Positions 30,529-58,404 of a stretch of DNA of 64,000 nt are shown here, one piece after another. How positions within the stretch are numbered: position 1 is the stretch's first letter; every line of letters starts with the position of its first letter. The position numbers were made by a program, and so were the translations under genes. The stretch is from a virus, in the IMG/VR virus record IMGVR_UViG_3300043466_001817, positions 30,096 through 94,095 of that record. One strand, written 5' to 3'. The notes under the pieces were generated by a model. The model saw only the letters and a list, made by a program, of their open reading frames with translations. It ran no database searches and was not told the origin of the DNA.

Positions 30529-30534
30529 GTGAGT

Positions 30535-31245: not shown

Positions 31246-31254
31246 CCCGAGGGG

Positions 31255-31277
31255 CTGGCTCAAACTTCTCGAGCCAG
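31255..31277 (-). terminator. Possible terminator hairpin
   Basis: CTGGCTC/GAGCCAG hairpin overlapping the stop of the 31260 gene; no T-tract. Confidence 0.35.
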
Positions 31278-31642: not shown

Positions 31643-31648
31643 GGTGGT

Positions 31649-31677
31649 ATCTTACCTTCCTGTCCTGTCCCTGTCAA
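31649..31677 (-). promoter_or_regulatory. Early promoter, leaderless
   Basis: TTGACA - 17 bp - TAAGAT, then 6 bp to ATG 31642. Confidence 0.8.
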
Positions 31678-31691
31678 TAGGGTAGGGCGGA

Positions 31692-32312: not shown

Positions 32313-32318
32313 GCGGTA

Positions 32319-32346
32319 ATTGTAACCGAATGGCTACAGAATGCAA
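32319..32346 (-). promoter_or_regulatory. Early promoter, leaderless
   Basis: TTGCAT - 16 bp - TACAAT, then 6 bp to ATG 32312. Confidence 0.8.
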
Positions 32347-32422
32347 TAGGGTAGCCCGCTGAAACGCAAAGAATAATTATTCATCGCGGTGCATAGTTAT
32401 GCAGGGCGTCCAGGTCGTCCGG

Positions 32423-32475
32423 CTACTATCAGGCCGTCCAATAAAATCAAGATCGCCGGGCGATCTTGATAGTAG
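32423..32475 (-). repeat. CTACTATCA hairpin element, copy 6
   Basis: Shortest copy. Inner arms AAGATCGCC/GGCGATCTT, then TGATTTTATTGGAC and CCTGATAGTAG. Confidence 0.85.
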
Positions 32476-32479
32476 CCCA

Positions 32480-32509
32480 CAAACAACCTAGCCCCGAGCT
32501 AATCGGGGC
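32480..32509 (-). terminator. Rho-independent terminator
   Basis: GCCCCGA/TCGGGGC hairpin followed by TAGGTTGTTTG on the minus strand. Confidence 0.7.
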
Positions 32510-32547
32510 AGGGACGAATCCTCTTCGGTTGTAAGAGCACCACCTCT

Positions 32548-32814
32548 TTAGTCTGTGGCCGGTGCGAGTGCCGCCTCCTGTCCGACGCGGATTCCTGCGC
32601 GGAATGCGTGGATCAGTTCCAGCAGTTCCCGCTTGCTGCGGTAGCCGGGGAAGATGGCGATGCAGGCTCCGTGGGGGCCGACGAGTTGCTGTAGTTGCCA
32701 TCCGCCGTATGCGCCCTGGAGGTAGTACGCACCTGGCGTGGCAGCGGTCGCCCCGACGAGTTGGTTCAGGACGCGGGTGGCGGCTTCAAGGTCGCGGATC
32801 GTGGTGTGCTTCAT
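32548..32814 (-). CDS. Small conserved phage protein
   Basis: 88 aa from ATG 32814. DLEAATRVLNQLVG ... AYYLQGAYGGWQLQQL ... YRSKRELLELIHAFRAGIRVG is a layout I recall in many phage genomes, function unknown. Near-leaderless promoter (7 bp). Confidence 0.75.
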   Translation of the reverse strand: MKHTTIRDLEAATRVLNQLVGATAATPGAYYLQGAYGGWQLQQLVGPHGACIAIFPGYRSKRELLELIHAFRAGIRVGQEAALAPATD

Positions 32815-32821
32815 AGTGTGA

Positions 32822-32850
32822 ACCTTACTGTATCGGGGGGCGGGAATCAA
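32822..32850 (-). promoter_or_regulatory. Early promoter, near-leaderless
   Basis: TTGATT - 17 bp - TAAGGT, then 7 bp to ATG 32814. Weak match. Confidence 0.55.
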
Positions 32851-32903
32851 GGGGGCAGGAAAGATTTTTTACTTTCTTTCCTGCCCCCCACCGGGGGCTT
32901 GGG

Positions 32904-33308
32904 TTAGATGGTCACGGAGCGGAGGGGGCGCGTCGGGGCGCGGTCGGCCTGCTTCGAGGCCGTGTCGCGTCCGTCGATCCAGTTAGCCGCAGCGAGGAGG
33001 CCGTAGGCGACGGCCCGCATCTCGTTCGCGGTGCAGGAGCAGCCCGCCCGCTCATCGAAGGCACCGAAGAGGTTGAACGACGCCATCCGGTGGTTGGGCG
33101 ACGAGAGGACGCGGACGGCGTAGGGGCCGACCGGGATCATGAACGCCGCAGCCGACTCGTGGTCGAAGCGGATGCGGGTGTAGTTGCTGCGGTTGCTGAT
33201 CGTGCAGTCGCTGATGCGGTTCTCGCGCTCGTTGCTGCGGAGGTTGTCAACGGAGCGCGACGGGCTGAACACGATGTCGGTGGCGCAGGAGAAGGTGGTG
33301 GTGGTCAT
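32904..33308 (-). CDS. Hypothetical early protein
   Basis: 134 aa from ATG 33308, with AGGAG 9 bp upstream; second gene after 33341. Thr/Ser/Arg-rich. It holds two Cys (GCSC). Not recognised. Confidence 0.7.
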   Translation of the reverse strand: MTTTTFSCATDIVFSPSRSVDNLRSNERENRISDCTISNRSNYTRIRFDHESAAAFMIPVGPYAVRVLSSPNHRMASFNLFGAFDERAGCSCTANEMRAVAYGLLAAANWIDGRDTASKQADRAPTRPLRSVTI

Positions 33309-33340
33309 GGTAGATGCTCCTAGTGAGAGGGGTGCGATTG

Positions 33341-33532
33341 TCAAGCGGTAACGCAAGATTCTGCGCGAAACTTTGCCTTGCTCCAGCGCGGGTCGGCATC
33401 GTACCCGTTGGTGAGGAGCAGGTAGCGGAACTCCTCAATGGCCTGGGCCTTGGAGTCAGCGCGAACCGTGGTGGAGTGAATGATGCCGCCGAGGGTGCAG
33501 GTGACGCGGAAGAGTTGGGTGGTGCTGTTCAT
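33341..33532 (-). CDS. Small early protein
   Basis: 63 aa. Beta-hairpin-like N-terminus then a helix (KAQAIEEFRYLLL); typical of small phage proteins of unknown function. Leaderless promoter. Confidence 0.75.
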   Translation of the reverse strand: MNSTTQLFRVTCTLGGIIHSTTVRADSKAQAIEEFRYLLLTNGYDADPRWSKAKFRAESCVTA

Positions 33533-33538
33533 GCGTGT

Positions 33539-33566
33539 ATGGTAGCGAATCTACAATGGAAGTCAA
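33539..33566 (-). promoter_or_regulatory. Early promoter, leaderless
   Basis: TTGACT - 16 bp - TACCAT, then 6 bp to ATG 33532. The -35 lies in the left arm of the inverted repeat. Confidence 0.75.
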
Positions 33567-33649
33567 TACCCTTTCTCAAATATTTCTCGAGCGCCCCCAG
33601 GCGACCGATAACCTACCGGCAGAAATATTTGAGAAAGGGTATTGACTTC
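33559..33649. repeat. 29-bp perfect inverted repeat between divergent promoters
   Basis: Arms 33559-33587 and 33621-33649 are exact reverse complements around a GC-rich 33-bp centre. Each arm contains the TTGACT -35 box and the A/T-rich sequence upstream of it, so both divergent promoters share identical upstream DNA. It marks the point where transcription direction switches. Confidence 0.9.
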
Positions 33650-33669
33650 GATAGCAAACTTGCTACCAT
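33642..33669 (+). promoter_or_regulatory. Early promoter, leaderless
   Basis: TTGACT - 16 bp - TACCAT, then 6 bp to ATG 33676. Confidence 0.75.
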
Positions 33670-33675
33670 TAGCGC

Positions 33676-33894
33676 ATGGACACCACCCACACCGATTCGC
33701 CCGACAACTTCCCCTGCCAGTGCCACCTGTCGAAGTACGCCTACGAGGACGCGCTCTGCCCCGAGTGCGAGGAGCGGGAGCGGCAGCTCGAAGCCCAGGT
33801 GGAGGCCGAAGCGCTGCGCGCCGAGGCCATGGAGGAGAGGGACTGGGACGCCGATAACGATTGGCTCGCCTCAGCGGGCTGGGGCGAGATGTGA
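33676..33894 (+). CDS. Small acidic protein with Cys pairs
   Basis: 72 aa. CQCH at the N-terminus and CPEC form a likely zinc site (CxC-H ... CPxC). A Glu/Ala-rich helix follows, ending in an acidic Trp-containing tail (DWDADNDWLASAGW). Leaderless, high GC. Confidence 0.7.
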   Translation: MDTTHTDSPDNFPCQCHLSKYAYEDALCPECEERERQLEAQVEAEALRAEAMEERDWDADNDWLASAGWGEM

Positions 33895-33930
33895 GCCCCA
33901 AATAAATCTTCAAACTTCCACCGGCCACCC

Positions 33931-33959
33931 TTGACATGGGGTGGTCGGTGTGCTAATAT
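33931..33959 (+). promoter_or_regulatory. Early promoter, leaderless
   Basis: TTGACA - 17 bp - TAATAT, then 6 bp to ATG 33966. Confidence 0.75.
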
Positions 33960-33965
33960 GCGCGC

Positions 33966-34133
33966 ATGATCACCACCGACGGTAACGATGAAACCCCCCG
34001 CAAGTACACCGATGGCGAGTACCGGCTGCGGCCCGAGTACCAGGAGGAGCAACACAGCGCCTGTTGGGAGGACCGCTACGGGCCCGACTACGATGACTGC
34101 GACGAGGGCCCTGACTGGGAGGGCGATGACTGA
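33966..34133 (+). CDS. Small acidic protein
   Basis: 55 aa (MITTDGNDETPRKYTDGEYRL...), ending in a run of Asp/Glu. The first residues resemble those of the next gene (TTxxEETPR). Leaderless. Confidence 0.6.
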   Translation: MITTDGNDETPRKYTDGEYRLRPEYQEEQHSACWEDRYGPDYDDCDEGPDWEGDD

Positions 34134-35817: not shown

Positions 35818-37131
35818 TTATGATCTTTTGCCCAAAGTCAATATGTCATTTATTGTATTTTGTAGACCTTTACCTAAATTTTTTGGGGGAGGTTGAATTC
35901 CCATCCATTCAATTTGATCATTGCCATATTGATTTTGGACTTGGTTCATTACTTGTGGCATTGATCCGGGCATGATTGCAGTTCTTTGTGTTGGAACTTG
36001 TTGTGGTTGTTGTTGAACAACTGATAGGTTTTTATTGACATTTTCCATTCCACCAGATGGAACGATTGTTTGCTTTTGTGCCACTTGATTTTGTGGTCCT
36101 TGCTTTTGAGCTACTTGATTGTTCCAAGCATTGATCTCTTCTGGAGATTGACCTCTCATTCCAAAAGCACCCCAATTTTGTTGTTGTGGTTGTGCTGCTG
36201 GGGCGGGTGTTTGTTGTTGAGCAGGTGCCGGTTGTTGTGTCGGTACAACTCTTTCAGTTGGAGACTTCCAATATTCTCCTTCGACTGGTTCTGGTTGCTG
36301 TGGTTGTGTTTTTACACGAGCAGGCGCAGTGTTTTGTGATTTGTTTTGATATGCTGGCAAGTAACTTTGTACATAACCGCTCTGGTCCATTTGATAGACG
36401 CCACCGGGTTGCATTGCTTGTTGATTAAATTGCGCTGGACTTGGACGATTTGATACAGAAACATTTCCGGGCATGTATGTTGCTGGGTTGTTTGGGTCAC
36501 CCATTGGAATTGTTTCTTGACTCAATCTTGTACCAGATTGTTTTCCTGCAACTTTAAGATAGTCTTGAATATCACTTTCTGGTGTGACTCCAGTATTCTT
36601 TGCTGGGGCGGTAGGAGTAACATTTGAAGGAAGCCCTCTTCTGATATCATCAAGGGCCTTCATTATTCCACCAGAATATTGAGCGTACTTGTTTGGTTTT
36701 GTTCCTGTGCCTGCTTTGGTGAAATCAAATCCTTGAGTTGGTACGTTGGGAGTTACGCCTCTTCTGACATCATCAATGGCTTTCATGATTCCACCAGCCA
36801 TTTGTGCAAATTGATTTGGTTTTGTACCTGTGCCTGCTTGAGTAAAATTAAAACCTTGATTTGCTGAAGGAGCAGCGGACGCAGCAGGTGCCTGAGCAGT
36901 GTTCTGCGGCGACATATTAAACAAATTCATTATTGTATTTTGAAGATTTCCTTGTTGCTGTGCCGCAGGAGGATTTTGCAATTGATTCATTATGCTTGGC
37001 ATAGAACCGGGCATAATTGGTGTTCTGCCAGAAGATTTTTTCTTATCTTCGTTCAATTCATTTTTAATTTGATGCAATTTTGCGGCAGCATCATGGATAT
37101 TGTTTGAAAAAATTAAATGGTCATTAAACAT
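35818..37131 (-). CDS. Gln/Pro-rich repeat protein
   Basis: 437 aa, low complexity. A tandem repeat of about 39 residues occurs twice (NFTQAGTGTKPNQFAQMAGG and DFTKAGTGTKPNKYAQYSGG, residues about 95-170). A second repeat brackets the protein: RTPIMPGSMPSIMNQ near the start and RTAIMPGSMPQVMNQ near the end, each with LQNTI(M/N) downstream. The middle is Gln/Pro/Ala-rich and likely unstructured. Late promoter. Could be a scaffold or internal protein. Confidence 0.75.
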   Translation of the reverse strand: MFNDHLIFSNNIHDAAAKLHQIKNELNEDKKKSSGRTPIMPGSMPSIMNQLQNPPAAQQQGNLQNTIMNLFNMSPQNTAQAPAASAAPSANQGFNFTQAGTGTKPNQFAQMAGGIMKAIDDVRRGVTPNVPTQGFDFTKAGTGTKPNKYAQYSGGIMKALDDIRRGLPSNVTPTAPAKNTGVTPESDIQDYLKVAGKQSGTRLSQETIPMGDPNNPATYMPGNVSVSNRPSPAQFNQQAMQPGGVYQMDQSGYVQSYLPAYQNKSQNTAPARVKTQPQQPEPVEGEYWKSPTERVVPTQQPAPAQQQTPAPAAQPQQQNWGAFGMRGQSPEEINAWNNQVAQKQGPQNQVAQKQTIVPSGGMENVNKNLSVVQQQPQQVPTQRTAIMPGSMPQVMNQVQNQYGNDQIEWMGIQPPPKNLGKGLQNTINDILTLGKRS

Positions 37132-37136
37132 GCAAA

Positions 37137-37144
37137 TATTTATA
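37137..37144 (-). promoter_or_regulatory. Late promoter TATAAATA
   Basis: Exact consensus 5 bp before ATG 37131 on the minus strand. Confidence 0.7.
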
Positions 37145-38135
37145 CATTTGCATGTTCTTTGCTCCCTGAAAAATTAATAAACTTTACATCAGTCTGTTCT
37201 TTGATGTAGTATTTGATGAAATCTTTCATGACCACAATATCCTCAAAATTTACCAATGCCCCCTCATATTTCAGCCGGAATGTTCCGACACTCTCAAGCA
37301 CATCACACTTGTTGATATAAAGTTCTGTGCAACCTGAAAGTTTAATGGCAGCGATAAGTTTATCCAAATTTAGCCAGTTCACCAGACGCTTGCGCCCAGT
37401 TGTCGAACCAAATTCCTGACCTTCCTCAATTATCTGGTTGAGGATCTTGTCTTCCCACAGCGACTCTGGAAAGAGTGGATCAACACCACTCTTGGTGTCA
37501 TAGATCTTGGCGACACCGATCAGTCGTTCGATCTTTTTTGGCGAGAAGCCGAGCGAGCAGGCACTATAAGGCATAGTTGAACTGCTGGTGACATATGGAT
37601 AATCTCCGTGATCAATGTCAAGCCAGACACTTTGAGCGCCTTCACAAAGGATGCGGCCTTTGAGTTCTCCGTCCCAAAGGAAATTTTGCGAAAAAACATC
37701 CTCGGCCCGTTTCCCTTTTCGAAGCATCTTATCAGCATAGCAAGGAGCGATGCCTTGACCAGTTGTTCCAAGTTTACCTTTTAGGTTGTTCAAATCATAT
37801 TCGATGTGATCATCTGTAATGATATGGGCCTTTGGAGAAACTTTTACAAGTCCGATGTCAAATCCGTTTTTGTTCAAGTAACTGAGTTCTTGATAAAATT
37901 TATCAACATGAAGAACACAACCGGGACCAATAATTGATGGCTTATCTTGAAAAATACCACACGGAATAATGTGTGTCTTGTATTTTACATTGTTGATCCA
38001 GACCGTATGACCTGCGTTGGGACCGCCATTCCAACGACAAACCATATCGTAGTCTTTAGCAATTGCGTTCGAGATCTTTCCCTTGCCCTCGTCACCCCAA
38101 GCAAGGCCGTAAATAATATCAACAGATTTAATCAT
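37140..38135 (-). CDS. purA: Adenylosuccinate synthetase family (PurA-like)
   Basis: 331 aa from ATG 38135. Bacterial PurA is about 430 aa; this short form is like archaeal PurA and phage PurZ. Motifs: WGDEGKGK P-loop with the catalytic Asp kept, GGPNAGHT with the catalytic His, GTTGQGIAPCYADK, CEGAQSVWLDIDHGDYPYVTSS, EFGSTTGRKR (aspartate loop) and NKCDVL (base recognition, GTP type). The reaction is IMP + Asp + GTP to adenylosuccinate. PurZ of 2-aminoadenine phages has Ser in place of the Asp; it does not here, so ordinary PurA or a PurZ0-like variant fits better. Lies downstream of tRNA-Asn. Confidence 0.9.
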   Translation of the reverse strand: MIKSVDIIYGLAWGDEGKGKISNAIAKDYDMVCRWNGGPNAGHTVWINNVKYKTHIIPCGIFQDKPSIIGPGCVLHVDKFYQELSYLNKNGFDIGLVKVSPKAHIITDDHIEYDLNNLKGKLGTTGQGIAPCYADKMLRKGKRAEDVFSQNFLWDGELKGRILCEGAQSVWLDIDHGDYPYVTSSSTMPYSACSLGFSPKKIERLIGVAKIYDTKSGVDPLFPESLWEDKILNQIIEEGQEFGSTTGRKRLVNWLNLDKLIAAIKLSGCTELYINKCDVLESVGTFRLKYEGALVNFEDIVVMKDFIKYYIKEQTDVKFINFSGSKEHANV

Positions 38136-38148
38136 AAAAAGTTCCAAA

Positions 38149-38221
38149 CTCTCCGAACTGGATTCGAACCAGTGACATGAAAGTTAACAGCTTTCCGCTC
38201 TACCTACTGAGCTATCGGAGA
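38149..38221 (-). tRNA. tRNA-Asn(GUU)
   Basis: 73 nt. Acceptor TCTCCGA/TCGGAGA, anticodon loop CTGTTAA in a GAAAG/CTTTC stem, T-arm CTGGTTCGAATCCAG, discriminator G. Expressed with PurA from the palindromic late promoter or from elsewhere. Confidence 0.9.
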
Positions 38222-38224
38222 AGG

Positions 38225-38238
38225 TATAAATATTTATA
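38225..38238. promoter_or_regulatory. Palindromic bidirectional late promoter
   Basis: TATAAATATTTATA reads as TATAAATA on both strands. It faces tRNA-Asn/PurA on the minus strand and the gene at 38238 on the plus strand. Confidence 0.7.
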
Positions 38239-38426
38239 TGGAAAGATTAGAAGATACAATACGCAAAGTTCAACAAAAATACAAGAATCGTCCAAGTCCT
38301 TTGAGTGAACAGTATACACGATCAAATGCAAATGTCAATTTTGTTCCTCAACAATCTAATCCAAATAAAGATATTAGAAGCAATTTATTGGGAAATTTTA
38401 CACCACCAAACGACACCTTTAGATAA
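38238..38426 (+). CDS. Small late protein
   Basis: 62 aa (MERLEDTIRKVQQKYKNRPS...), helical N-terminus and Asn/Pro-rich end. The ATG begins at the last base of the palindrome, so mRNA from the late promoter would start very near it. Not recognised. Confidence 0.65.
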   Translation: MERLEDTIRKVQQKYKNRPSPLSEQYTRSNANVNFVPQQSNPNKDIRSNLLGNFTPPNDTFR

Positions 38427-38433
38427 TCGAAAG

Positions 38434-38441
38434 AATAAATA
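38434..38441 (+). promoter_or_regulatory. Late promoter AATAAATA
   Basis: Late octamer 5 bp before ATG 38447. Confidence 0.6.
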
Positions 38442-38446
38442 ATTTT

Positions 38447-39967
38447 ATGGACCAACTCACTCAACTGTATAAATCCCGTGTCGAAGATCTTCAAAAACAG
38501 ATTACCATACTTGAATCAAAGTTAAAAAATATTGATAATTTGAATGAAGATACAAAAGAAAATGTAGAATTTCTTCGATCAACCGGCGGTTATGTTATTA
38601 AATATGTAAATAATAAACCAGTAGCATTATATGATAAAAAACCAGAAGATGGTGGAAAAGAAATCCCGTCTAAACAGGCTGGAGATCAACTAGTACCAAA
38701 AGAAGGCCCTCAAGGTGAGGGTGGTAAAGGCGGAGATGGTGGTGGTGAAAATAGTTGGTTAAAACATCTTGATCCATTGATTTCTGGAATAAAAAGTACA
38801 TGGTCTGGATTGCCGGATTTGGTAAAATATCCCACTGTTGGTGCGTTAATTGGTACTACAGAAATTCCTGGACTTAGAATTCCTCCAACCAGACCTGGTT
38901 TAAAATCATTAGAGTATTTTACATCATTTAAACAACCACAAGGTCTTAGACAATTATTCTCACCAGAGGGATTGCCTACTGATACCTATGTTCCACAGAG
39001 CGGAGGACTGGAGGCAAAACCTATTATAAGCGCAAAATCTTTAAACCCCATTACACTTGCATCAAGAGCGGCGGCAAAATTTAGAATTGGTAGAATGGGC
39101 GAAGAAGGATTGGAAACATTAAGATCTCAAGCAGAAGAGGTAGCAAGACAACGAGATATAGAAGCTGCAGCAAGACAAGCAGATAGATCTAGAAGTATTT
39201 TTAGACAAGCATCAACTGCTGCTAGAACAGCAGAACAAATACCACCTGGATCCAATTTAAGAGAACCTGCACTTTCAGTTGGTGGTACTGTACAACAAAC
39301 TCCATTAACACCAGCCGGGGAAACCACAGTTTCGGACGCAGTAAGGGCTAGACACGGATCAGTAGATCCAGAAGTTGAAACATTGATAGGTTCAAGGACT
39401 TTATCTTCAACTGCAAAACCCTTAACACAACAAAGTAGTTCTAGTGTACCAAAAGGTGTTAGCGTTACATCTGGTGGTGCAATTGCGTTAGAACCTCAAG
39501 ATCCAATGCAAGAACTTTTATTAAGAGCTAAAGAAGGAATAGAAATGACTGGTAAAGATGTCAAAGCCGCTGGTGCTGCTTTGCGTAGAGGTGCAACAAC
39601 CCCATTACCAGGTTCTTCAAGTGCTCTAGCATCAGGTGCTGCAAAAATGGGTGCAGGTGTTGTTGGTGCATTGGCTGGAGAATATTTACTAAAACCTGAA
39701 TTAGAAAAAGCAGGTATATTTAATGCAACAGAAAAAGGTGTTAGAAAATCATTAGAAGGAAAACCTGGATGGATGGCATCCGCTGTTGATATAGGTGCCG
39801 AGGCAGCAAAGCAAGCAGCGCAACCATTTATGATGGGTTTACCTTTATCTGCTGCAACATCAGTTGGAACGCTATCTGGTGGTGCACAAGATCGCTTTGC
39901 AAAAGAATTGAGATCTAAAGGATATAGTGAAAAAGAAATAAGCCAAATGGCTTATCCATCTTTTTAA
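38447..39967 (+). CDS. Large low-complexity late protein
   Basis: 506 aa. Starts MDQLTQLYKSRVEDLQKQITILESKL, a relative of the MNYLTNYYKNL leader family with I-L-E near residue 25. A Gly-rich stretch at about 90-105 (GEGGKGGDGGGE), Ala/Arg-rich middle, and a hydrophobic C-terminal third (AAKMGAGVVGALAGEYLL). Probably a head-internal or membrane-active protein. Confidence 0.75.
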   Translation: MDQLTQLYKSRVEDLQKQITILESKLKNIDNLNEDTKENVEFLRSTGGYVIKYVNNKPVALYDKKPEDGGKEIPSKQAGDQLVPKEGPQGEGGKGGDGGGENSWLKHLDPLISGIKSTWSGLPDLVKYPTVGALIGTTEIPGLRIPPTRPGLKSLEYFTSFKQPQGLRQLFSPEGLPTDTYVPQSGGLEAKPIISAKSLNPITLASRAAAKFRIGRMGEEGLETLRSQAEEVARQRDIEAAARQADRSRSIFRQASTAARTAEQIPPGSNLREPALSVGGTVQQTPLTPAGETTVSDAVRARHGSVDPEVETLIGSRTLSSTAKPLTQQSSSSVPKGVSVTSGGAIALEPQDPMQELLLRAKEGIEMTGKDVKAAGAALRRGATTPLPGSSSALASGAAKMGAGVVGALAGEYLLKPELEKAGIFNATEKGVRKSLEGKPGWMASAVDIGAEAAKQAAQPFMMGLPLSAATSVGTLSGGAQDRFAKELRSKGYSEKEISQMAYPSF

Positions 39968-44079: not shown

Positions 44080-44454
44080 TTGGACATAGATACGATTAAC
44101 AAGATTTACCTCCCCATTGCCAAGCCTCTTTCGATGGCTATGGAGAGGCAAAAAAAGCACATCTCGTTGGTTCTGTACAAGCGCAAGGTTATTGCGGTGG
44201 GTCAAAACATTTTTAAGACCCACCCCAGTACCTTGCGTTTGGGTTATAGAACGGCTGACATGCACTCTGAACTAGATGCATTCCGCAAAGTTCCTAAAAA
44301 TTTGCGTGGTGAAAAGTTGGTTCTAATTAATTTTAGATTCAACCGTTTTGGTCATTTTAGAAATTCTAAGCCTTGCCCTGTTTGTTCTAAGTGGTGTTCT
44401 GAGGTATTTCACAAAATTTATTATACCACTGATGAGGGTCTAGAAATGCTCTAA
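44080..44454 (+). CDS. Cytidine/deoxycytidylate deaminase-like protein
   Basis: 124 aa from TTG 44080 (ATG 44134 is possible). The zinc-deaminase signature is present: MHSELDAF (H-x-E) and KPCPVCSKWC (PCxxC). Such enzymes convert (d)CMP, cytidine or related bases to uracil forms. It is shorter than T4 dCMP deaminase (193 aa), and the middle INFRFNRFGHFRN strand is typical of the fold. Follows the Lsm-like gene by 1 bp. Confidence 0.75.
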   Translation: MDIDTINKIYLPIAKPLSMAMERQKKHISLVLYKRKVIAVGQNIFKTHPSTLRLGYRTADMHSELDAFRKVPKNLRGEKLVLINFRFNRFGHFRNSKPCPVCSKWCSEVFHKIYYTTDEGLEML

Positions 44455-44458
44455 ATAT
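44451..44458 (+). promoter_or_regulatory. Late promoter CTAAATAT
   Basis: TAAATA core 16 bp before ATG 44475, overlapping the deaminase stop. Confidence 0.5.
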
Positions 44459-44474: not shown

Positions 44475-47400
44475 ATGCCAAAAAAAGGTTGTTGTTCTTG
44501 TAATGTAACTAGTTGCTGTGCTCAACATAATTACACCAATAATGTTGCCATGATTGGTGATTTATTAGTTGATGATGAATTTAAAATTAATGCTGAGGGT
44601 GAAATTGAACGAGATGATCAAGGTGACCCTATTTTAATAGAAAAATGTCAAGTATCACCAATACATAAAGATGATGAATTAATATTATTTCAAAGACCAT
44701 TTGTAAATGGTTTTTTTGGAGATAATTCTACAAGAGTATATAATAATGGTCAAAATGGAAATTGTAAATGTTTTTATGGTTATTCAACTTACAGACCACA
44801 AAGAACTAGAACTATAAGACAAAAATACAAATATATTGGTTGTCAATGGACTTGGTATCCACCAAAATTTTTATTTAATTATGATCAAAATATACCTCAG
44901 TGTGGCATAGCAGCACAAAAAAATCCAACAGACCCATTACCTTTTTATGCAAATTGTTTTGATTTTACTGTTGGATTAGGAAATGCCGGAAATGTTTCTG
45001 CTGGTTTTGCAGATGAAACAAATATGTGTCCATTGTGTACACAAATAAATCCAATGGTTACAAATTCAGACTTGAGAGACAATCAAGGAAATTATATTTT
45101 TAACATTTGGGGAGATGTTGAAAGCGGTAGGCCGCAAGTATCTTCTTTTTATGGAATAAAACCAATTGCTGGTGGAAATGGTTGGAGCACACAATTTATT
45201 TCAAGTTTATATCCTGGCCATGGAATAAATATAGGTTATTCATGCTGTACTTGTACAAATGAAAATCCAAATGTTACAGTAATAAGACCAGAAGCAGGAA
45301 CAAGTTGTTGGATGAAATCCTCTGTTCCAGTAGTTGATGGTGAGTGTTTAAATTTAAATGTTGTTAGAAGTAATGTAAACAATCAAAATAATCAGGAGCC
45401 ACCATTATATAAAGATGGCGGTATTTTTTATTCTACTTTTGAAAATAGAATTAATGGGAGATTAGCAAAAGCAGAAATTAATGAATCTTCAACATTTATA
45501 ATGGGGCAGGGAACAGATCCAGCATATTTTGTAGATAATAGATCTTTACCGGGTATTTCATACATACCATCATCTGGCGGATATTCACAAAATAATTGCA
45601 CATATTGTTCATTAAGCCCATATTTGAGAGACCTTGCACACAATCAATATACTTGGGCCTATGATTTATTTTGTGCAGGAAGAGTTGAAGGGGGTCCAGC
45701 AAAAACTTATAATTTTCCTTTAAGTTTTATAAAAACTGGAATGTGGAATTTGAATCCCTCTTCAGGAGAAGGTTTAAAACAAGAAAAAATAAATGGTGGC
45801 TCAACTGATGCTGATTCTGAAATGGAACAGTGGACTGAAGTTTTAGGAGAACATACTTTTTATAGCCAATTAGTTGGCATGGTTCAACTAGAACACTATT
45901 GGGAATATACTGGTGTAAATAAATCAGATTTAGATGCAGCAGTTAAAACAATCCCATATGGGATACAACCCGGTGGAGATGTGCAAAATAGATGGAACTA
46001 TTGGCTACAAAGAACAACTCCCAGAATGTTTGTTTTAAAATCTTCTGCAACTCCATTATTTATTTTTGATTTAGTTTATGCAGATAGATTAGGTATATTT
46101 AAAGCATTTGCCGATCCAGATCAGAGTGCAACTCAACCAGATGGCAATTCAGTCGATCCACCTACAATGACTATTGCTAAATTTTTAGCATATTTTAGTA
46201 CATTTTCAAATTCATACTCATTTATGGGAAATACTCCAATAGATGGAAGAGGTAGAGCACAATATCCGCCCGGATGTGATAAAGGTTATAAGCATGTAAG
46301 GATAGTTAAAGAAATTTTAGATGCTATGTCTGAAGCCGGTATAATTGGAACTAGAGATCACAGACAAGCCATATACAATGAAATAAAACAAATTATAGAG
46401 ACTGGAATTGAAAATGGAAGAAATGGAGCATATTATAAACCATGGGCACCAGGAAATTCGGTGTTTGTAACGCCATCTGATTTTGATAAATTATATGCAA
46501 AATATTACACACCTTATCAGAGAATGTGTACTCCAAAAGAAATGTTTCCAGAAGAAGGAGACACTGGGCTAGGATTATTTGGACCAATAAGAAAAATTAT
46601 ACCACCTTCATATTTGACTTTTCCAGATTTAAAGTGGAATGCAAGTGATTGGAAAAATAATCATGATGGTGAACAGCCACCAGCACAACCTCCATTTTTA
46701 TATATGGCAAATACAGTAGATCCAGATGATATTTTCAATGAAAAAAATATACCTATTGTAAATTGCAGAACTGGTGGGAATCTTGGAGATAAAGAAAGAA
46801 AAAGAAAAATACAAAATCTTCAATTTTCAAAATATTATGGTAATGGATATTACAATGTGGATTCTCCTGATTATGTAAATAGTCAATTATTTTTTAGAGC
46901 AATTCCCGGTAGGTGGTCATTTGTAAAATGGGCATCGATGACAACTATGAATGAATGGTGTAACCGCCAAACAAATCCATGTAGTGCATATGAAATATAC
47001 GGAGCCGGATCACCACCATCTACTGGAGAGCCCGGTTATCTTTGGCATTCTGAAGGTGTTCGTACAATTTTATACAATTATGGTGATGATTTATTTGGAA
47101 ACGGATATCCTGGAATGTGTAATGGAATAAATCCAAAATTGATAACACCAAGACCAATTCAAGGGTCCCCTCCCGGTACAAATTGTGGAGACAATACCAC
47201 AGATCAAATAAACACTTCTGTATACAGAACATCAAGTGCAAATTGTGGATTCCAGTCAATAGCATGGGATGCCAGTGGAGCACCGAGCACAGTTAGATGT
47301 ACTCCTGTTTGTACGCCACCAAATGATTCCTGCTGCAACAGAGAAGTATTTTATTGTGGTTGTGAGTGCTCTGCAATAAAAGATTGTGCAAATCAAAATA

Positions 47401-48398
47401 TTGCAGTAAATGGAAATAGCAATTGGAATTCAAATTTAACATGTGAACAATTATTTGGTAGATCTTGTTGTCAATGTATTGGGAGAGATCCAGAAGAAAA
47501 TCTAACAGTTCAGGAATATATTGATCTATTAACTGGTCCTGAAAGAAAATGCGAAACTTGCGGTGATGATTGTAATTTTGGTTGTCCAGATGAAACACAA
47601 CAACCATTTACATTTACCGATAATATTGAAACTGTCAAAGATGACGATGATTTGAACAAATTATTACCACCAGAATCTGTAGCAGATGACAGAGATTATA
47701 TTTTTAAAGGTCTTTTTGGTAGCGGTGACCCAAATATTCCTAGTATAGGAGATGGTGAAAGTGGTGGTGGACAAAATCCATGTGAAGTAACTGGCTGTGA
47801 TAATATTGAAACTGGTCCACAATTAGGCGTCGGAGCATGTGATCCAAATTGTGGATATAATGGAATTGCATATGACAAACTTGCATTTGTATTGCAACAA
47901 AATAATTATAACTGGAGTAAAAATCCAATTACTAGTGATGGAGATGATTGTCCTCTATGCACGTGCTCTGGATATAATACTTGCTATGTAAGGTTTGCTG
48001 GAAAAGTTCAAAATTATTTACCAAATGCACAAACTGGATTTTATGAACCACAAGAGAGTAATGACGGAAATCTATTTGATACTGGACCAATAAACATGGA
48101 AACACCCATTCATTTAGTTCCAACTAGTATTGATGGTGGTGCGGGTAAAGCGGCGGTAGCGTGGCTATCGTGCAGTGATTATAATACTTGTGGTGACCCA
48201 GCAAGCAAACCATGTGTATGCAATACTCAAATTAGTTTTAATGATTTATTATGTCCGGGTGCTGTTGCCAAAGCATATACCCTTGGTCCCGATTGCAATA
48301 TTGGAAATAGATGGTGTGGGTATTATCGTTCAGGTAGAGTCATACTCGGTGAAATTAAAATTAGTGATGTGCTAGATCAAAATTATGAATATGTTTAA
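44475..48398 (+). CDS. Giant Cys-rich virion protein
   Basis: 1307 aa with about 60 Cys, unusual for a phage. N-terminus MPKKGCCSCNVTSCCAQHN; Cys clusters recur throughout (CTCTNEN, CCNREVFYCGCECSA, CQCIGRDPEEN, CETCGDDCNFGC, CPLCTCSGYNTC). Rich in Asn, Gly, Tyr and Pro, weakly charged. Probably an extracellular tail or fibre protein stabilised by metal or disulfides, perhaps a host-receptor binder. Late promoter. Family unknown. Confidence 0.8.
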   Translation: MPKKGCCSCNVTSCCAQHNYTNNVAMIGDLLVDDEFKINAEGEIERDDQGDPILIEKCQVSPIHKDDELILFQRPFVNGFFGDNSTRVYNNGQNGNCKCFYGYSTYRPQRTRTIRQKYKYIGCQWTWYPPKFLFNYDQNIPQCGIAAQKNPTDPLPFYANCFDFTVGLGNAGNVSAGFADETNMCPLCTQINPMVTNSDLRDNQGNYIFNIWGDVESGRPQVSSFYGIKPIAGGNGWSTQFISSLYPGHGINIGYSCCTCTNENPNVTVIRPEAGTSCWMKSSVPVVDGECLNLNVVRSNVNNQNNQEPPLYKDGGIFYSTFENRINGRLAKAEINESSTFIMGQGTDPAYFVDNRSLPGISYIPSSGGYSQNNCTYCSLSPYLRDLAHNQYTWAYDLFCAGRVEGGPAKTYNFPLSFIKTGMWNLNPSSGEGLKQEKINGGSTDADSEMEQWTEVLGEHTFYSQLVGMVQLEHYWEYTGVNKSDLDAAVKTIPYGIQPGGDVQNRWNYWLQRTTPRMFVLKSSATPLFIFDLVYADRLGIFKAFADPDQSATQPDGNSVDPPTMTIAKFLAYFSTFSNSYSFMGNTPIDGRGRAQYPPGCDKGYKHVRIVKEILDAMSEAGIIGTRDHRQAIYNEIKQIIETGIENGRNGAYYKPWAPGNSVFVTPSDFDKLYAKYYTPYQRMCTPKEMFPEEGDTGLGLFGPIRKIIPPSYLTFPDLKWNASDWKNNHDGEQPPAQPPFLYMANTVDPDDIFNEKNIPIVNCRTGGNLGDKERKRKIQNLQFSKYYGNGYYNVDSPDYVNSQLFFRAIPGRWSFVKWASMTTMNEWCNRQTNPCSAYEIYGAGSPPSTGEPGYLWHSEGVRTILYNYGDDLFGNGYPGMCNGINPKLITPRPIQGSPPGTNCGDNTTDQINTSVYRTSSANCGFQSIAWDASGAPSTVRCTPVCTPPNDSCCNREVFYCGCECSAIKDCANQNIAVNGNSNWNSNLTCEQLFGRSCCQCIGRDPEENLTVQEYIDLLTGPERKCETCGDDCNFGCPDETQQPFTFTDNIETVKDDDDLNKLLPPESVADDRDYIFKGLFGSGDPNIPSIGDGESGGGQNPCEVTGCDNIETGPQLGVGACDPNCGYNGIAYDKLAFVLQQNNYNWSKNPITSDGDDCPLCTCSGYNTCYVRFAGKVQNYLPNAQTGFYEPQESNDGNLFDTGPINMETPIHLVPTSIDGGAGKAAVAWLSCSDYNTCGDPASKPCVCNTQISFNDLLCPGAVAKAYTLGPDCNIGNRWCGYYRSGRVILGEIKISDVLDQNYEYV

Positions 48399-48409
48399 AG
48401 GATTTATAA

Positions 48410-48883
48410 ATGACACATAATGGTAATAAAACAGTTGTTGTAAATGGAAATATGATGGAAGTAAATATTTCCGATCTTTTAGATTTAACGGATGCAAAAC
48501 AAATGAAGATATTTAATGAAGAAAGAAAAAAAAGATTTAAACCGTCTTTTTATTGTGGGTTTGGTATTAAAAGTTTTGGTTTGGGAAATGTTATAGACAA
48601 AATAACAACTTATACTGGAATTAAAAAAATTATTAAATTAATTTTTAAAGAATGTGGTTGTGAAAAACGAAGAATTTATTTTAATAAATGGAATATATAC
48701 GTACCATATTTTTTTATTAAATTAAATTTAAAATCTTCAATAAAAGATATTGAACCAGTGCCAATGACACAGATTAAATTGTCGGATCCTAGCGATGATG
48801 GTATTAAAAATATAAAAATACCAAGATCTGTGGTAAAAAAATCAAACTCGGGATGTGGTTGCAATAAAAAATTCAATAAATAA
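48410..48883 (+). CDS. Companion of giant Cys-rich protein
   Basis: 157 aa. Lys/Ile-rich, with a CGCEKR site and a final SGCGCNKK motif. AAAGG before ATG and 11 bp after the giant gene, so it is in the same operon. May assist or modify the Cys-rich protein. Confidence 0.7.
   Translation: MTHNGNKTVVVNGNMMEVNISDLLDLTDAKQMKIFNEERKKRFKPSFYCGFGIKSFGLGNVIDKITTYTGIKKIIKLIFKECGCEKRRIYFNKWNIYVPYFFIKLNLKSSIKDIEPVPMTQIKLSDPSDDGIKNIKIPRSVVKKSNSGCGCNKKFNK
48875..48882 (+). promoter_or_regulatory. Late promoter AATAAATA
   Basis: Late octamer 5 bp before ATG 48888. Confidence 0.55.
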
Positions 48884-48887: not shown

Positions 48888-49097
48888 ATGGCTAAAGGTA
48901 AAATTAAAAACACCAAAAAAAAGCCTACTGAAAACAAGTACTATTACTTTGTTGCTCATGTAGATCCTAATGGTGATGTCATTCCCCTTTTATTGACAGA
49001 TATTGAGTTTGAAAAAGCCAAAGCAAGGGCAGAACGAAATCCTGAAGACGTCCCAGTGGATTTCATTGCTTTTACACAATGCCACAAGGATAAATAA
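48888..49097 (+). CDS. Small hypothetical protein
   Basis: 69 aa. Lys-rich first 15 residues, then a compact domain (YYYFVAHVDPNGDVIPLLLTDIEFEKAKARAERN). Start fixed by late promoter spacing. Not recognised. Confidence 0.7.
   Translation: MAKGKIKNTKKKPTENKYYYFVAHVDPNGDVIPLLLTDIEFEKAKARAERNPEDVPVDFIAFTQCHKDK
49089..49096 (+). promoter_or_regulatory. Late promoter GATAAATA
   Basis: Late octamer 7 bp before ATG 49104, overlapping the previous stop. Confidence 0.6.
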
Positions 49098-49103
49098 TTT
49101 ACC

Positions 49104-49466
49104 ATGACATGCGTACAAAAATTAATAAACTTTCAAAATGAGATTAGACTCCATCACTGGGGAACTAAATCTTATTCAGCACACAAAGCTCTAGGAAATT
49201 TATATGAAGGTCTTGATGATTTAATTGATACTTTTACTGAAACATATATTGGTGTTTATGGAAAAGAAAAAATTAAACAAATTTCAGATCTTCAACTAAA
49301 TGGTCCATACAGAACATCTGCCGAACAAGTAGTAAATTCTCTTGAAGATTATTTAATGAATGAAATTGAAAAAGAAATAGAAAAAGACCAAACATCATTG
49401 TTAAATATACGTGATGAGATGCTTGGTCTGGCCCAACAAACCAAGTATCTCCTGACGCTCACCTGA
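49104..49466 (+). CDS. DUF5856-like four-helix protein
   Basis: 120 aa. LINFQNEIRLHHWGTKSYSAHKALGNLYEGLDDLIDTFTETYIG resembles the phage family DUF5856 with a ferritin/Dps-like helical look (H-W, H, E positions). Function unknown; metal binding is possible. Confidence 0.75.
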   Translation: MTCVQKLINFQNEIRLHHWGTKSYSAHKALGNLYEGLDDLIDTFTETYIGVYGKEKIKQISDLQLNGPYRTSAEQVVNSLEDYLMNEIEKEIEKDQTSLLNIRDEMLGLAQQTKYLLTLT

Positions 49467-49480
49467 GCACAGGAGTAAAA

Positions 49481-49852
49481 ATGAAGATTTCAGAGTTAGT
49501 TTACGAAATTCGGTCTCTAGCTCGCAAGGAAACAGATCCCTTAAAGAAGGATCTGTTTTTTCAATGTGCCAAAGCACTTGAAGTGTGTGGTAATCTCGCA
49601 AAGGTTGCAGATCTCGTTGTTGCAGAGCATTACACAACACTAAAGCCAGCAGTAAATGAGTTAGATGAAATCAAATGGCCTATTGATGAAGTTACAATCA
49701 AAGGACTTGAAGATCATCTAAATGAATTAGAACGCTGCAGCATGTTGGAAAAAAATGATCGTTGGCCATATGGAGCAGACATTTTTTCTAAGTTTACTGT
49801 TCCTGTAGCAATCGAACATCTACAAAAGGAATCAGAGCAGAATAAATCTTAG
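49481..49852 (+). CDS. Helical hypothetical protein
   Basis: 123 aa, AGGAG before the ATG. The 5' part contains the hairpin GATCC...GGATC inside the coding region. It ends convergently and overlaps the minus gene by 59 bp. Not recognised. Confidence 0.75.
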   Translation: MKISELVYEIRSLARKETDPLKKDLFFQCAKALEVCGNLAKVADLVVAEHYTTLKPAVNELDEIKWPIDEVTIKGLEDHLNELERCSMLEKNDRWPYGADIFSKFTVPVAIEHLQKESEQNKS

Positions 49853-50414
49853 GTGGAATTGTTTTGTGACTTTTGACCTTCATAGTCGAAGGCATTAGTT
49901 TCATTATAATTCTGCTCTTGTAAGGACTCTTTTTGTACATCCAATATCTTCTTGTTTCTTCCATCAAGAAGTGGGTGTAGATGTAACAGTTGGCTTGCTT
50001 GGCATAATACTTGGTATCTATTGGAAGATTAAATTGCTTTATTAATTTCATAGCGCGTTTTTCACAATCGCGTTCCATAGCACGAACCAAGAAAAAAGCC
50101 CTCTTTACAGTTTGAGGGTTGTAGTCTTTTCCAAGCAACCAATTTTCTACTATTACGGAAGCTTTGTCCGATTTTCTATAAATTTGTATGTCGTTTATAT
50201 ATTGGAGGAAATGGCAATATTCATGAACTAGGGTGGATAAAAAGCCTTCCCCGTTGCCCGCCATTTTTATCAAAATTTCTCTATCGTCAAAGAATCCGGG
50301 GCACATTATGCCATTGCAGTTAACCTGCTTGCCTTTTCCAATTACCAATTTTCCACCGTATTGTTTTAAGTGATCTCTCACAAACTTTACGAACTGATTG
50401 ATTCCCTGTGCCAT
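49794..50414 (-). CDS. Putative zinc metallopeptidase
   Basis: 206 aa. STLVHEYCHFLQY contains the HExxH zinc-peptidase motif (SprT-like/minigluzincin style). NWLLGKDYNP and AMERDCEKRAMKLI follow with a Glu that may be the third ligand. GAGGAGG ribosome site and a late-type promoter. Substrate unknown. Its last 59 bp are antisense to the neighbouring gene. Confidence 0.75.
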   Translation of the reverse strand: MAQGINQFVKFVRDHLKQYGGKLVIGKGKQVNCNGIMCPGFFDDREILIKMAGNGEGFLSTLVHEYCHFLQYINDIQIYRKSDKASVIVENWLLGKDYNPQTVKRAFFLVRAMERDCEKRAMKLIKQFNLPIDTKYYAKQANCYIYTHFLMEETRRYWMYKKSPYKSRIIMKLMPSTMKVKSHKTIPPKIYSALIPFVDVRLLQEQ

Positions 50415-50432
50415 AGGACCTCCTCAGCCGTA

Positions 50433-50440
50433 TTATTTAG
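50433..50440 (-). promoter_or_regulatory. Late promoter CTAAATAA
   Basis: TAAATA core 18 bp before ATG 50414 on the minus strand. Confidence 0.5.
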
Positions 50441-50448
50441 GATAATAC

Positions 50449-50476
50449 TTGACAGTCAAGAATTGGGTGCTATATT
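50449..50476 (+). promoter_or_regulatory. Early promoter
   Basis: TTGACA - 16 bp - TATATT, with a 31-nt leader carrying AAGGAAAG. Confidence 0.8.
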
Positions 50477-50507
50477 ATAGCAACTTCTTATAAGAAAGGA
50501 AAGTGTT

Positions 50508-50744
50508 ATGGAAATTACTACTGTTGATCGTCCGACCAAGATTCAGAGAGTGTTTGATTACATGCGTTCTGGCCGTCCGCTAACGGCTGGAGAGGCACGG
50601 AAGCGTTTCCGCGTCAGCAACATGCGCGCCACGATGCATGACCTCAAGGAGGCGTTTGACCGCCTTGACAGCAACTACACCGTAGTTCGCATGACCCAGA
50701 ATGGTCGTAGCTACTACAAGGTTACTCGTAACCGCGCTCGTTAA
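50508..50744 (+). CDS. Small winged-helix DNA-binding protein
   Basis: 78 aa. RVFDYMRSGRPLTAGEARKRFRVSNMRATMHDLKEAF is a helix-turn-helix and the YTVVRMTQNGRSYYKVTRN wing follows. Basic C-terminus. Likely a transcription regulator. Single-gene early unit with its own terminator. GC richer than its late neighbours. Confidence 0.8.
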   Translation: MEITTVDRPTKIQRVFDYMRSGRPLTAGEARKRFRVSNMRATMHDLKEAFDRLDSNYTVVRMTQNGRSYYKVTRNRAR

Positions 50745-50765: not shown

Positions 50766-50794
50766 AAACCCTCCCATGTGGGAGGGTTTTTTTT
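50766..50794. terminator. Bidirectional terminator
   Basis: AAACCCTCCC/GGGAGGGTTT hairpin with T8 on the plus side and A-run on the other; ends both converging units. Confidence 0.85.
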
Positions 50795-52085
50795 ATAGAT
50801 ACAATTCTACTGTAAGTTGGGCTGGACCAGAGAACACACAATATAAAGTTTTTGGAAGTGATGTTCCATACAATAGTAAAATATAACTTTGATCATACCC
50901 AGGAATTCCAGATTTATAATAACCTGATATTAATTTTTGTTGTAAATTGGAATCTGTGTATATATCTACACTCCATCCTTGAAGTGATATGTGGCTTAAA
51001 TCTAATTTAAGATTTCCAGTTATTGGTGTAAACGATAAAGATGAAATAACTGATGATGTTCCTGAATATGATCTATTAGTATAAATTGCATATTTTTGTG
51101 AAAATGTTACTTGATCTACAGTAATAGAACCAGGAGCAATTGAAAAATATACGCTATTTACATATGGAAGTGTTTTATTTCCATTTAAAGCATAAGAAGA
51201 ATATTCTATACCATTATCACAATCCTGACATGAACTCCAATACGAATAATATGTATTTCCTAAAGATTGAGCTCTTAAATACGATTGATATTCATTTTGA
51301 TTTTCATAGCAGTTTTCTTTTATTAAATTAAGATCATATACGACCAATGAACCAGTATTGTTTTGTGGTTTTTCAATTATTGAAACATTTGATTCACCGC
51401 GAATATAAAAATTTAATGTTGTTGAATTTGTTTTTAAATTTTGATTTGTTAGTGTTGAACCTGTAATATACAACAATTCAGTTTCGTCTTTTAATTTTAC
51501 AGAACCGTATGTTTTTATTCTTCCTGAATTTAAAGTAGATCCTACTATTTCAACATATTCCTCAAAATTAAATGCCGAACCAAGTACCCCAGAATCTTTA
51601 AATTTTGTATTTTTTTTGTTTGGCAGAGTATTGTAGATATAATTTGCGGCGGTTGCTCCACCAGTATAGCCAATATTTAATTGTGGAACACTTAAAAAGT
51701 TTTGTTTATCAAAGAATGTGTAATTTGATATTGCAGTAAATCCAGAAGATATTGTGCCTACTATTGTTTTATAATCATTAAAATTTGAAGAGTATGAAAA
51801 AGTTCCGCCGATATATGTTCTTATATTAGCTATTTCGTCATAATATTCTGTATTTGTAAAATAAACAGTACTTCCTACAGGAAGGTTTGAAAATATTCTT
51901 TTTAAAAATACTCTATCTGAATTATTGTATGTGTCAGAATAATCTATGTAACAAGTAGAACCGTCTATCGATATTGATGGAATTGTAACAAACCAGCATT
52001 TTTGAAAACATGGGTCCATTGTTGTTCCTTGAACAACAATCCCTGTATTTGTAATGCTGCGTACTTTATTAAGAATATATGACAT
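50793..52085 (-). CDS. Putative fibre/virion protein
   Basis: 430 aa, beta-rich, Ser/Tyr/Asn-rich and poor in charge, typical of phage fibre or decoration proteins. Cys pairs at CFQKC and CQDCD. Follows the 52089 gene by 3 bp. Not recognised. Confidence 0.75.
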   Translation of the reverse strand: MSYILNKVRSITNTGIVVQGTTMDPCFQKCWFVTIPSISIDGSTCYIDYSDTYNNSDRVFLKRIFSNLPVGSTVYFTNTEYYDEIANIRTYIGGTFSYSSNFNDYKTIVGTISSGFTAISNYTFFDKQNFLSVPQLNIGYTGGATAANYIYNTLPNKKNTKFKDSGVLGSAFNFEEYVEIVGSTLNSGRIKTYGSVKLKDETELLYITGSTLTNQNLKTNSTTLNFYIRGESNVSIIEKPQNNTGSLVVYDLNLIKENCYENQNEYQSYLRAQSLGNTYYSYWSSCQDCDNGIEYSSYALNGNKTLPYVNSVYFSIAPGSITVDQVTFSQKYAIYTNRSYSGTSSVISSLSFTPITGNLKLDLSHISLQGWSVDIYTDSNLQQKLISGYYKSGIPGYDQSYILLLYGTSLPKTLYCVFSGPAQLTVELYL

Positions 52086-52088: not shown

Positions 52089-53033
52089 TTACGATGCAAG
52101 GAAAGTTATAATTTGTGTTCCCGATCCTGCTTGTACCCAAATTTTATCTGTGTTTGATATATCCAAGAATATGTTATCACCGGGGTCCATTGCAAATCCA
52201 ACAGATCCGCCAGCAAAACCAGATGTATTACCTATATAGACGAAATCTGTATTTGTTGAAAGTGCTTTCAAATTTACACCTTTACTTGATGTAAATCCGG
52301 CAACGTCTAATTGCGAAGCAGAAGTTGTTGCACTTACACGATTATTTTTGAAAGAAGATGGACGAGTTATTGCAAAGCCACCAAGATCGCTTCTAAGACC
52401 TACAACCTGTCCATAAATGGCTGTCATACCGGAGAGAATTGCAACATCGTTTATGTTTGCAGTTCCACCTACGGTTACGTTTACTGCTGTTGCACCAGAA
52501 AGACCGACTACTGTTACTGTAGAAGGAATTGTTGCACTTATTGTTGCGCCGGTGATATTTACGTTCAACGCACCGTTTGTGTATGATAAAGAATTTCCGG
52601 CTTGATCGACTAGGTTTACATAAACATAAGTTAATCCAGATGGACCCCATACAGAAACAGAGTTTGTTGATTTGGAAAGTGGTACGCCACCAGTAACTTC
52701 TACTCTGTATCCGGTTGCAGTTGCAACATATATTGGAGAACTTGTAACGCCTGTTACAGTTACGGTTCCAGATACTGGAACTGGAGTTCCACCACCGATT
52801 CCTTGAACATTGATGGTTCCGGTAAATCCAGAAATTGTTGCTGTCATTCCAGCGGCTATTGTTACTGGTAATGGATTTGTAGAGTTGACCATTGTGGCAA
52901 CCGCATCAGTACCATATGCCAGTTTAATCAACTGGTAATGGCCTGTAATACCACCTGTGCCGACATAATCGGTGGCGATGCTTGCGGTTATACCAGATGT
53001 AGTGATTTGGATTGAGTCTGATGTTGCTCCCAT
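52089..53033 (-). CDS. Putative fibre/collar protein, beta-repeat
   Basis: 314 aa. Long runs of Thr/Val/Gly/Ala strands with repeats such as PVSGTVTVTGV, NVNITGATISATIPSTVTVVG and NVTVGGTANINDVAIL (spacing 15-25 residues), giving a beta-helix or fibre shaft. The C-terminal 90 residues are globular (GFAGGSVGFAMDPGDNIFLDISNTDKIWVQA). Late promoter. Confidence 0.8.
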   Translation of the reverse strand: MGATSDSIQITTSGITASIATDYVGTGGITGHYQLIKLAYGTDAVATMVNSTNPLPVTIAAGMTATISGFTGTINVQGIGGGTPVPVSGTVTVTGVTSSPIYVATATGYRVEVTGGVPLSKSTNSVSVWGPSGLTYVYVNLVDQAGNSLSYTNGALNVNITGATISATIPSTVTVVGLSGATAVNVTVGGTANINDVAILSGMTAIYGQVVGLRSDLGGFAITRPSSFKNNRVSATTSASQLDVAGFTSSKGVNLKALSTNTDFVYIGNTSGFAGGSVGFAMDPGDNIFLDISNTDKIWVQAGSGTQIITFLAS

Positions 53034-57588: not shown

Positions 57589-58404
57589 ATGAAATATTTT
57601 GAAAAATTACCAAAAATAAATTATGAAACAACCGCTGGAACTTTTACAGTTACCACTCCATATGCTTATTATAAATTTGATGTTGACTCTATTCTTAAAC
57701 AGGATTATGCAATAGACGCCAAAACAACTTTATTAGAAGCTGGAGCGATGTTGTATAAAGATGCAAACTCATTTTGGTTATTTTTACTTGCAAATAAAAA
57801 AATAAATCCCTTTGATTTAGTCCCTACAAACGTTCAGATATTCAATAAACAGAGTGAAGATAAGTATACTTTTAACGTATCCGGTTCTACTGCAAATCAA
57901 TATGTTGTTTTAGGTAAACAATCTGTATTGGTAAATTATGATCCAACCAAATCAGATGGAATAACCGCAACTTATGGTGAAACTGGTCCATGGGATGTTT
58001 ATGGAGATTTTGCTCTAGTTGAAAGCACAAATGCGTATAATAAAAAAATAACGGTTAAACCAGTTAAAGGCACAAAAGGAGATCTTATTATAGGAACTTC
58101 TACAATTAGCCCACTCGTAGGATTTGATTATTCTCCAGTAGTAGAAAATTATTCAACTTCTACAAAAAGTTTAACTGCAGGAACTGCAACAAAATATACT
58201 TCAAGTAAGGCTGGTTCAATAATTCCTTCCATATCTGAAACCACAATACAAGCTATTGCAGATGAAATAATTGAATCTGGATCAACAGGAATTGATTATA
58301 CTGTTTCAGATGTGTTAATTCAAACACCAAAAACTGTAAAAGCATTTTTACCTGGTCAAGTTTCTAAGATATTTAATAACTTAATCTATATTAAATATAG
58401 TTGA
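57589..58404 (+). CDS. Baseplate wedge gp53-like
   Basis: 271 aa. MKYFEKLPKINYE..., FDVDSILKQDYAIDAKTTLLEAGAMLYKDANSFWLFLLANKKINPFDLVPTNVQIF is the gp53 signature with the WLFLLAN-x-NPF block. Binds wedges in the baseplate. C-terminal half is longer than T4 gp53 (196 aa). Confidence 0.8.
   Translation: MKYFEKLPKINYETTAGTFTVTTPYAYYKFDVDSILKQDYAIDAKTTLLEAGAMLYKDANSFWLFLLANKKINPFDLVPTNVQIFNKQSEDKYTFNVSGSTANQYVVLGKQSVLVNYDPTKSDGITATYGETGPWDVYGDFALVESTNAYNKKITVKPVKGTKGDLIIGTSTISPLVGFDYSPVVENYSTSTKSLTAGTATKYTSSKAGSIIPSISETTIQAIADEIIESGSTGIDYTVSDVLIQTPKTVKAFLPGQVSKIFNNLIYIKYS

Follow-up and report, generated by a model that had tools for sequence, protein, structure and literature searches.

The distal tail fibre of T4-type phages is formed by gp37 with its assembly partners gp38 and gp57A, and dedicated helper proteins of this sort assist tail-fibre folding or attachment. 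In pelagimyophages and cyanomyophages, a host recognition cluster has been described between VrlC and gp14 (PMC7029224). Here, we analyzed bases 30096-94095 (64,000 nucleotides, hereafter "the window") of the 94,095-base IMG/VR virus record IMGVR_UViG_3300043466_001817, focusing on a cysteine-rich protein of 1307 amino acids (aa; the "body", window positions 44475..48398, + strand) and the 157-aa "companion" encoded directly behind it (48410..48883, +). Sequence comparisons suggest that this pair is probably one allele of a late, cassette-exchanged host-recognition (adhesin) module, which would comprise the body, the companion and a 430-aa partner encoded on the opposite strand (50793..52085, -).

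The genome is T4-like: gp32 lies at 53412, and the stretch at 55-63 kb contains genes for the baseplate hub, tail tube, head closure and baseplate wedge. Among the ten best annotated gp32 proteins, mostly from marine cyanophages, identity to the window gp32 is 51-53%. As in the T4 tail fibre system, the locus is cassette-exchanged, with sharp recombination edges and a small, putative helper or tip gene directly behind the large one; it may also resemble that system in being expressed late. Unlike that system, the window body is very cysteine-rich and without a tail-fibre match in PHROGs or Pfam, a constant cysteine N-terminus stands in place of the conserved fibre N-terminal domain, and the family of the companion changes along with the body class. 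What the locus has in common with the cluster described in PMC7029224 is a structural region that varies among T4-like phages from aquatic habitats and carries collagen repeats and further binding domains; the window locus differs in lying near gp32 and baseplate genes instead of between VrlC and gp14, and the string "cystein" is absent from the main text of that paper.

The body holds exactly 60 cysteines (4.6%), where an earlier note made from the DNA alone had put about 60 in clusters. Many of them fall in CC, CxC and CxxC clusters, and they are densest past residue 900 (cysteine-dense C-terminal part, residues 904-1281, 47184..48317, +). Across 26 other genes compared nearby the mean is 1.1% (74/6580 residues), a rate at which 60 cysteines in 1307 residues would have a binomial probability of 3e-19; the Cys-poor surroundings described earlier are thus real on average, but have exceptions such as a 185-aa (4.9%) and a 149-aa protein (4.0%). 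Compared with its homologue in a related locus (L002), the body has 58 of 65 cysteine columns in common. Because these columns are kept at an overall identity of 62%, this indicates that the body cysteines are under constraint. The companion combines a GxGDxIDxITxxTGIK...CGCEKRR...N domain with a CGC tail and has five cysteines; its GCGC, previously reported as terminal, is present near the end rather than at it (...SGCGCNKKFNK). The CC, CxC and CxxC clusters would fit metal binding before lysis and disulfides after it.

The pair occupies a fixed locus, with homologues of the body at the same place in related viruses. A scan with the window gp32 recovered 80 loci, 28 of which had at least 6,000 bases upstream and were testable (the other 52 were too short). 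All 28, several of them copies of one allele, carry in this position a large ORF (open reading frame) passing a Cys-rich test (at least 20 cysteines and 2.5% cysteine), immediately followed by a small companion ORF. When loci supplied by a scan with class A and E companions (see below) were added, 59 loci had 1,500 or more bases upstream and a companion scoring strongly (E below 1e-30), and 57 of these passed the same test, the failures being L023, whose 68-cysteine ORF overlaps the companion beyond the script limit, and L115 (39 cysteines in 1582 aa, 2.47%). Two later scans gave 51 of 53, with misses at L193 (39 cysteines in 1582 aa, 2.47%) and L202 (a weak companion beside a short ORF). A set of 49 bodies of at least 1000 aa reduced to 31 distinct ones.

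At this fixed position the body is exchanged. In the close relative G001 (contig IMGVR_UViG_3300044627_002952), most nearby genes are 96-100% identical to those of the window, including metabolic neighbors at 98-99%, as against 59% for the body, 62% for the companion and 79% for the 430-aa gene. Identity falls sharply at the body start and returns at the companion end; after a spacer of ~2 kb at 94-100% nucleotide identity, it drops again over the 430-aa gene, which forms a second variable island, and over the C-terminal part of the adjacent 314-aa gene (52089..53033, -), whose product looks beta-rich. Synonymous divergence (dS) reaches 1.02 in the body, 0.98 in the companion and 0.88 in the 430-aa gene, with all other genes at 0-0.25 except a 506-aa gene (0.42 over 70 alignable codons). 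Because synonymous divergence is this high, the comparison indicates that these three genes were replaced by another allele and did not simply undergo fast protein change. Among 35 distinct loci, 56 pairs have gp32 proteins at least 93% identical, and body identity is below 70% in 44 of these pairs and below 35% in 35. For example, the gp32 of L016 is identical to that of the window to rounding and its body is of class E, only 17% identical to the class A body of the window, and L020, with 98% identity in gp32, has a class C body. Alleles are swapped between viruses whose genes are otherwise near-identical, as looked for in a receptor-binding protein. Whole-body replacement with insertions and deletions and a dS near 1 does not look like the product of a diversity-generating retroelement, for which no search was made.

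Body, companion and 430-aa protein also diverge together. Over 31 loci, body divergence correlates with that of the companion (rho 0.86) and of the 430-aa protein (0.83), as against -0.05 for gp32, and the same holds within classes A and E (26 loci; 0.76, 0.94 and 0.09, respectively). Where the spacer genes are retained (11 loci), the companion and the 430-aa protein correlate at 0.76, as against -0.05 to 0.08 for the spacers and the 430-aa protein. From this co-divergence we infer a helper role for the companion and a partner role for the 430-aa protein.

Sorting by eye and by similarity gave five body classes, with lengths of about 450-2491 aa. Class A includes the window body and those of L004/L015, L062/L065 and L097. 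Class E bodies (about 1800-2491 aa) have a core homologous to that of class A (20-28% identity over about 300-600 residues; window residues 365-705, 45567..46589, +), with an RCC1-like propeller inserted behind it (PF25390, 4e-15 in L087). Class B is collagen-like (PF01391 at 3e-5 in L069, with matches to tail-fibre PHROGs down to 2e-5), class C is glycine-rich (PF12810, 9e-7 in L025), and class D consists of bodies of 450-720 aa (L029, L031, L040 and L057). In front of these different bodies stands a constant M..K/R..CC motif, represented in the window by MPKKGCCSCNVTSCC (residues 1-15, 44475..44519, +). It begins 19 of the 29 bodies whose starts were read; the other ten, all of class E, have a separate small ORF with such a start directly upstream. 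A motif search, which itself required this pattern, returned 44 distinct N-termini of the kind. The companions follow the bodies: those of classes A and E have one domain in common, with which class D companions align over 32 columns (88% probability), and those of classes B and C belong to a different family, common to both, with 12-13 cysteines.

The start of the body gene carries a promoter-like motif. The consensus of T4 late promoters is TATAAATA; in cyanophage S-PM2 it is NATAAATA (PMC2984593). In the window, CTAAATA (44451..44457, +) lies 24 bases 5' of the start codon, overlapping the stop codon of the preceding gene, and its place and spacing are the same in L004 and others. Of 29 loci, 12 have the exact NATAAATA no more than 100 nucleotides from where the body begins, as against 2.5% of random windows. 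With the motif widened to [ACT]TAAATA, a choice made after inspection of these sequences, all 18 one-gene loci have it within 40 nucleotides of the start (L102, a near-copy of L101, being omitted), as against 222 of 9000 random windows. By eye, the ten two-gene loci have TATAAATA or CTAAATA 5' of the small first ORF, and at companion starts the motif was found in 4 of 14. Elsewhere in the window, NATAAATA at ~48875, 49089, 56754, 56760 and 61218 lies 13-15 bases 5' of start codons, nearer than at the Cys-rich gene, and would perhaps give very short leaders.

Searches for relatives of the body returned no known family, in line with what the earlier note had supposed. The body matched no PHROG and no Pfam family at E up to 1, had no match in a profile search against PDB sequences (best E 0.46) and none in a tblastn search of 50,697 phage records with the threshold relaxed to E 10; the homology to a known enzyme that would have spoken against the earlier note did not appear in Pfam or PDB sequences. 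In the phage records no match was found either for the bodies of classes E (L087), D (L029) and B (L069) and of L138 (class C was left out), or for the 430-aa protein, the 314-aa protein and a class B companion. Pattern scans of cellular genomes with body and companion alignments, which reach only sequences keeping the chosen peptides, gave no relative. Structure prediction, which the earlier note had proposed as a check, was run with AlphaFold2 on residues 1-720 and 365-705 (mean predicted local distance difference test scores of 44 and 66), and fold searches with both models found nothing above chance, which at such low model confidence says little. No paper on such a Cys-rich phage protein family was found in the open-license literature, and an RCC1 mention in PMC10218006 consisted, in the portion consulted, of locus tags only. 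The notion of a distinct, adhesin-like Cys-rich protein that has a partner and belongs to no known family is supported, but rather than an isolated oddity the window carries one allele of an exchanged module that is widespread.

The companion carries a domain of PHROG 32048 (a small domain, G-GD...TGIK...CGC..R..LN; E 0.024 for the window, 7e-7 and 6e-6 for class D companions), which elsewhere mostly lacks a Cys-rich neighbor. Among the weaker hits with 1,500 upstream bases, 27 of 28 are without one, and in L104, L109, L113, L118 and others the domain occurs in other phages, mostly beside genes that are not Cys-rich. The exception, L138 (7532-9156), is an unrelated-looking phage with exonuclease and Erf-like genes, in which a 38-cysteine ORF starting MSSLSRKCCC is directly followed by a 76-aa CGC companion and then by proteins of 842 and more than 2180 aa without cysteine. 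In Microcystis phage Mel-JY01 (L233, 7649-8222), a 62-aa companion-domain protein lies directly behind a Dps-like gene related to that of the window (29% identity to the 120-aa protein described below), and this phage also has an IMP dehydrogenase like that of the window.

A host-recognition module fits these observations best, because the body is replaced at a fixed locus and unrelated bodies stand behind a constant N-terminus, and because companions follow bodies, several bodies have extracellular-binding modules, the motif is of late type and tail genes are nearby. The giant Cys-rich protein, which the earlier note had supposed to be a virion protein, would be made late and probably displayed on the particle as an adhesin, with the short N-terminal cysteine motif as its constant, probably docking, end and the class-specific body behind it turned outward to the receptor. 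The companion, its family matched to the class of the body, may assist that body in folding, metallation or attachment, and the 430-aa protein is a likely structural partner. For virion location, adhesion and docking, we infer from the sequences and their arrangement. Most likely, the body represents a new sequence family with a phage adhesin role; such a role would be a familiar one, and the architecture is new within the reach of the present searches. It is possible, if speculative, that the constant cysteine N-terminus, fused or separate, plugs unrelated Cys-stabilized ectodomains into a common particle socket, with the cognate companion loading or cross-linking them through metal or disulfides, which would be an undescribed adhesin architecture. 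Whole ectodomain classes would then be exchanged as cassettes, and L138 hints at such a pair outside the T4-like clade.

Several observations weigh against the host-recognition module. Many class E loci have the 430-aa gene shortly after the companion, so that physical linkage could account for some of the co-divergence. In the 11 loci where the spacer genes are kept, body and 430-aa protein correlate at only 0.20 and body and gp32 at 0.67, both values being dominated by bodies without measurable similarity. The class B relative matches tail-fibre PHROGs solely through its collagen part, which may reflect low-complexity likeness, the fold searches were empty, and the window motif CTAAATA departs from the exact consensus TATAAATA. 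Finally, one group of closely related class E viruses has bodies that are 89-98% identical and vary hardly more than their flanks; constant hypermutation was rejected on these values, and the locus therefore changes by replacement.

A late protein acting outside the particle, released at lysis or held on the infected cell, where it would mask receptors or hold cells (competitor exclusion or neighbor capture), appears unlikely to us. The late-type motif, the exchange and the binding-type modules would suit any outward-facing protein, and a related "sibling capture" has been proposed for pelagimyophage curli genes (PMC7029224). Yet the N-terminus (MPKK-CC) does not look like a signal peptide by eye, no secretion genes were recognized beside the body in family searches, tail genes lie nearby and the co-diverging 430-aa partner looks structural. 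Another alternative is a virion protein with no part in host choice, i.e., a head or tail decoration binding particles, mucus or grazers and diversified for other reasons: no body class is tied to a host here, and decoration-type proteins also have collagen-like and glycine-rich modules. Wholesale allele exchange among near-identical viruses, as between those with near-identical gp32, is however most often a pattern of host-range genes, and we hold a decoration to be quite improbable.

A further reading is an intracellular protein that binds or stores metal and is loaded by the companion; in its favor are the 60 cysteines, clustered as CC, CxC and CxxC and kept in 58 of 65 columns, and the Dps-like gene two genes downstream. 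We regard this reading as very improbable: no enzyme or metal-protein family was found in Pfam, PHROGs or PDB sequences, and wholesale exchange of the body beside metabolic neighbors that hardly differ is unexpected for an intracellular protein.

The spacer between the two variable islands (48890..50744) holds conserved genes for proteins of about 69, 120, 123, 206 and 78 aa. The 120-aa protein, the Dps-like one just mentioned, matches phrog_858. The 206-aa protein (49794-50414, -) is conserved and has an HEYCHF motif that looks metallopeptidase-like by eye, its match to DUF6782 being weak (E 0.044).

Farther away, the window has a GC-rich block (22000-34000, 0.52-0.62 in a genome of ~0.35 GC), which encodes tRNAs and an AAA_5 ATPase on the - strand. 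A chimeric contig was considered and rejected; the block is probably no assembly artefact, because the part beyond 27.3 kb is present in G001 at 95-98% identity (G001 does not reach the left junction of the block). A short adenylosuccinate-synthetase-like protein (37140-38147, -) falls in a PHROG family named PurZ-like, and in the PDB ordinary PurA (3e-59) is favored far over PurZ (7e-10). Two more variable proteins lie at 35818-39967, with NATAAATA just 5' of their starts: one of 437 aa, for which no G001 counterpart was found, and one of 506 aa with 25% identity to G001. Both were rejected as fibres, being Pro/Gln-rich or helical and of internal type by eye, and are perhaps internal proteins. 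A baseplate-wedge-like gene (57589-58404, +), 89% identical to G001 and flanked by genes at 100%, is perhaps a third variable spot.

Every testable locus of this uncultured T4-like clade spends about 1.4-7.5 kb on a body that is replaced wholesale. If the body is a host-recognition protein, its class would provide a sequence handle on the host range of uncultivated viruses, and the constant cysteine motif, if its docking role is true, would offer a natural test of how unrelated ectodomains share one docking site.

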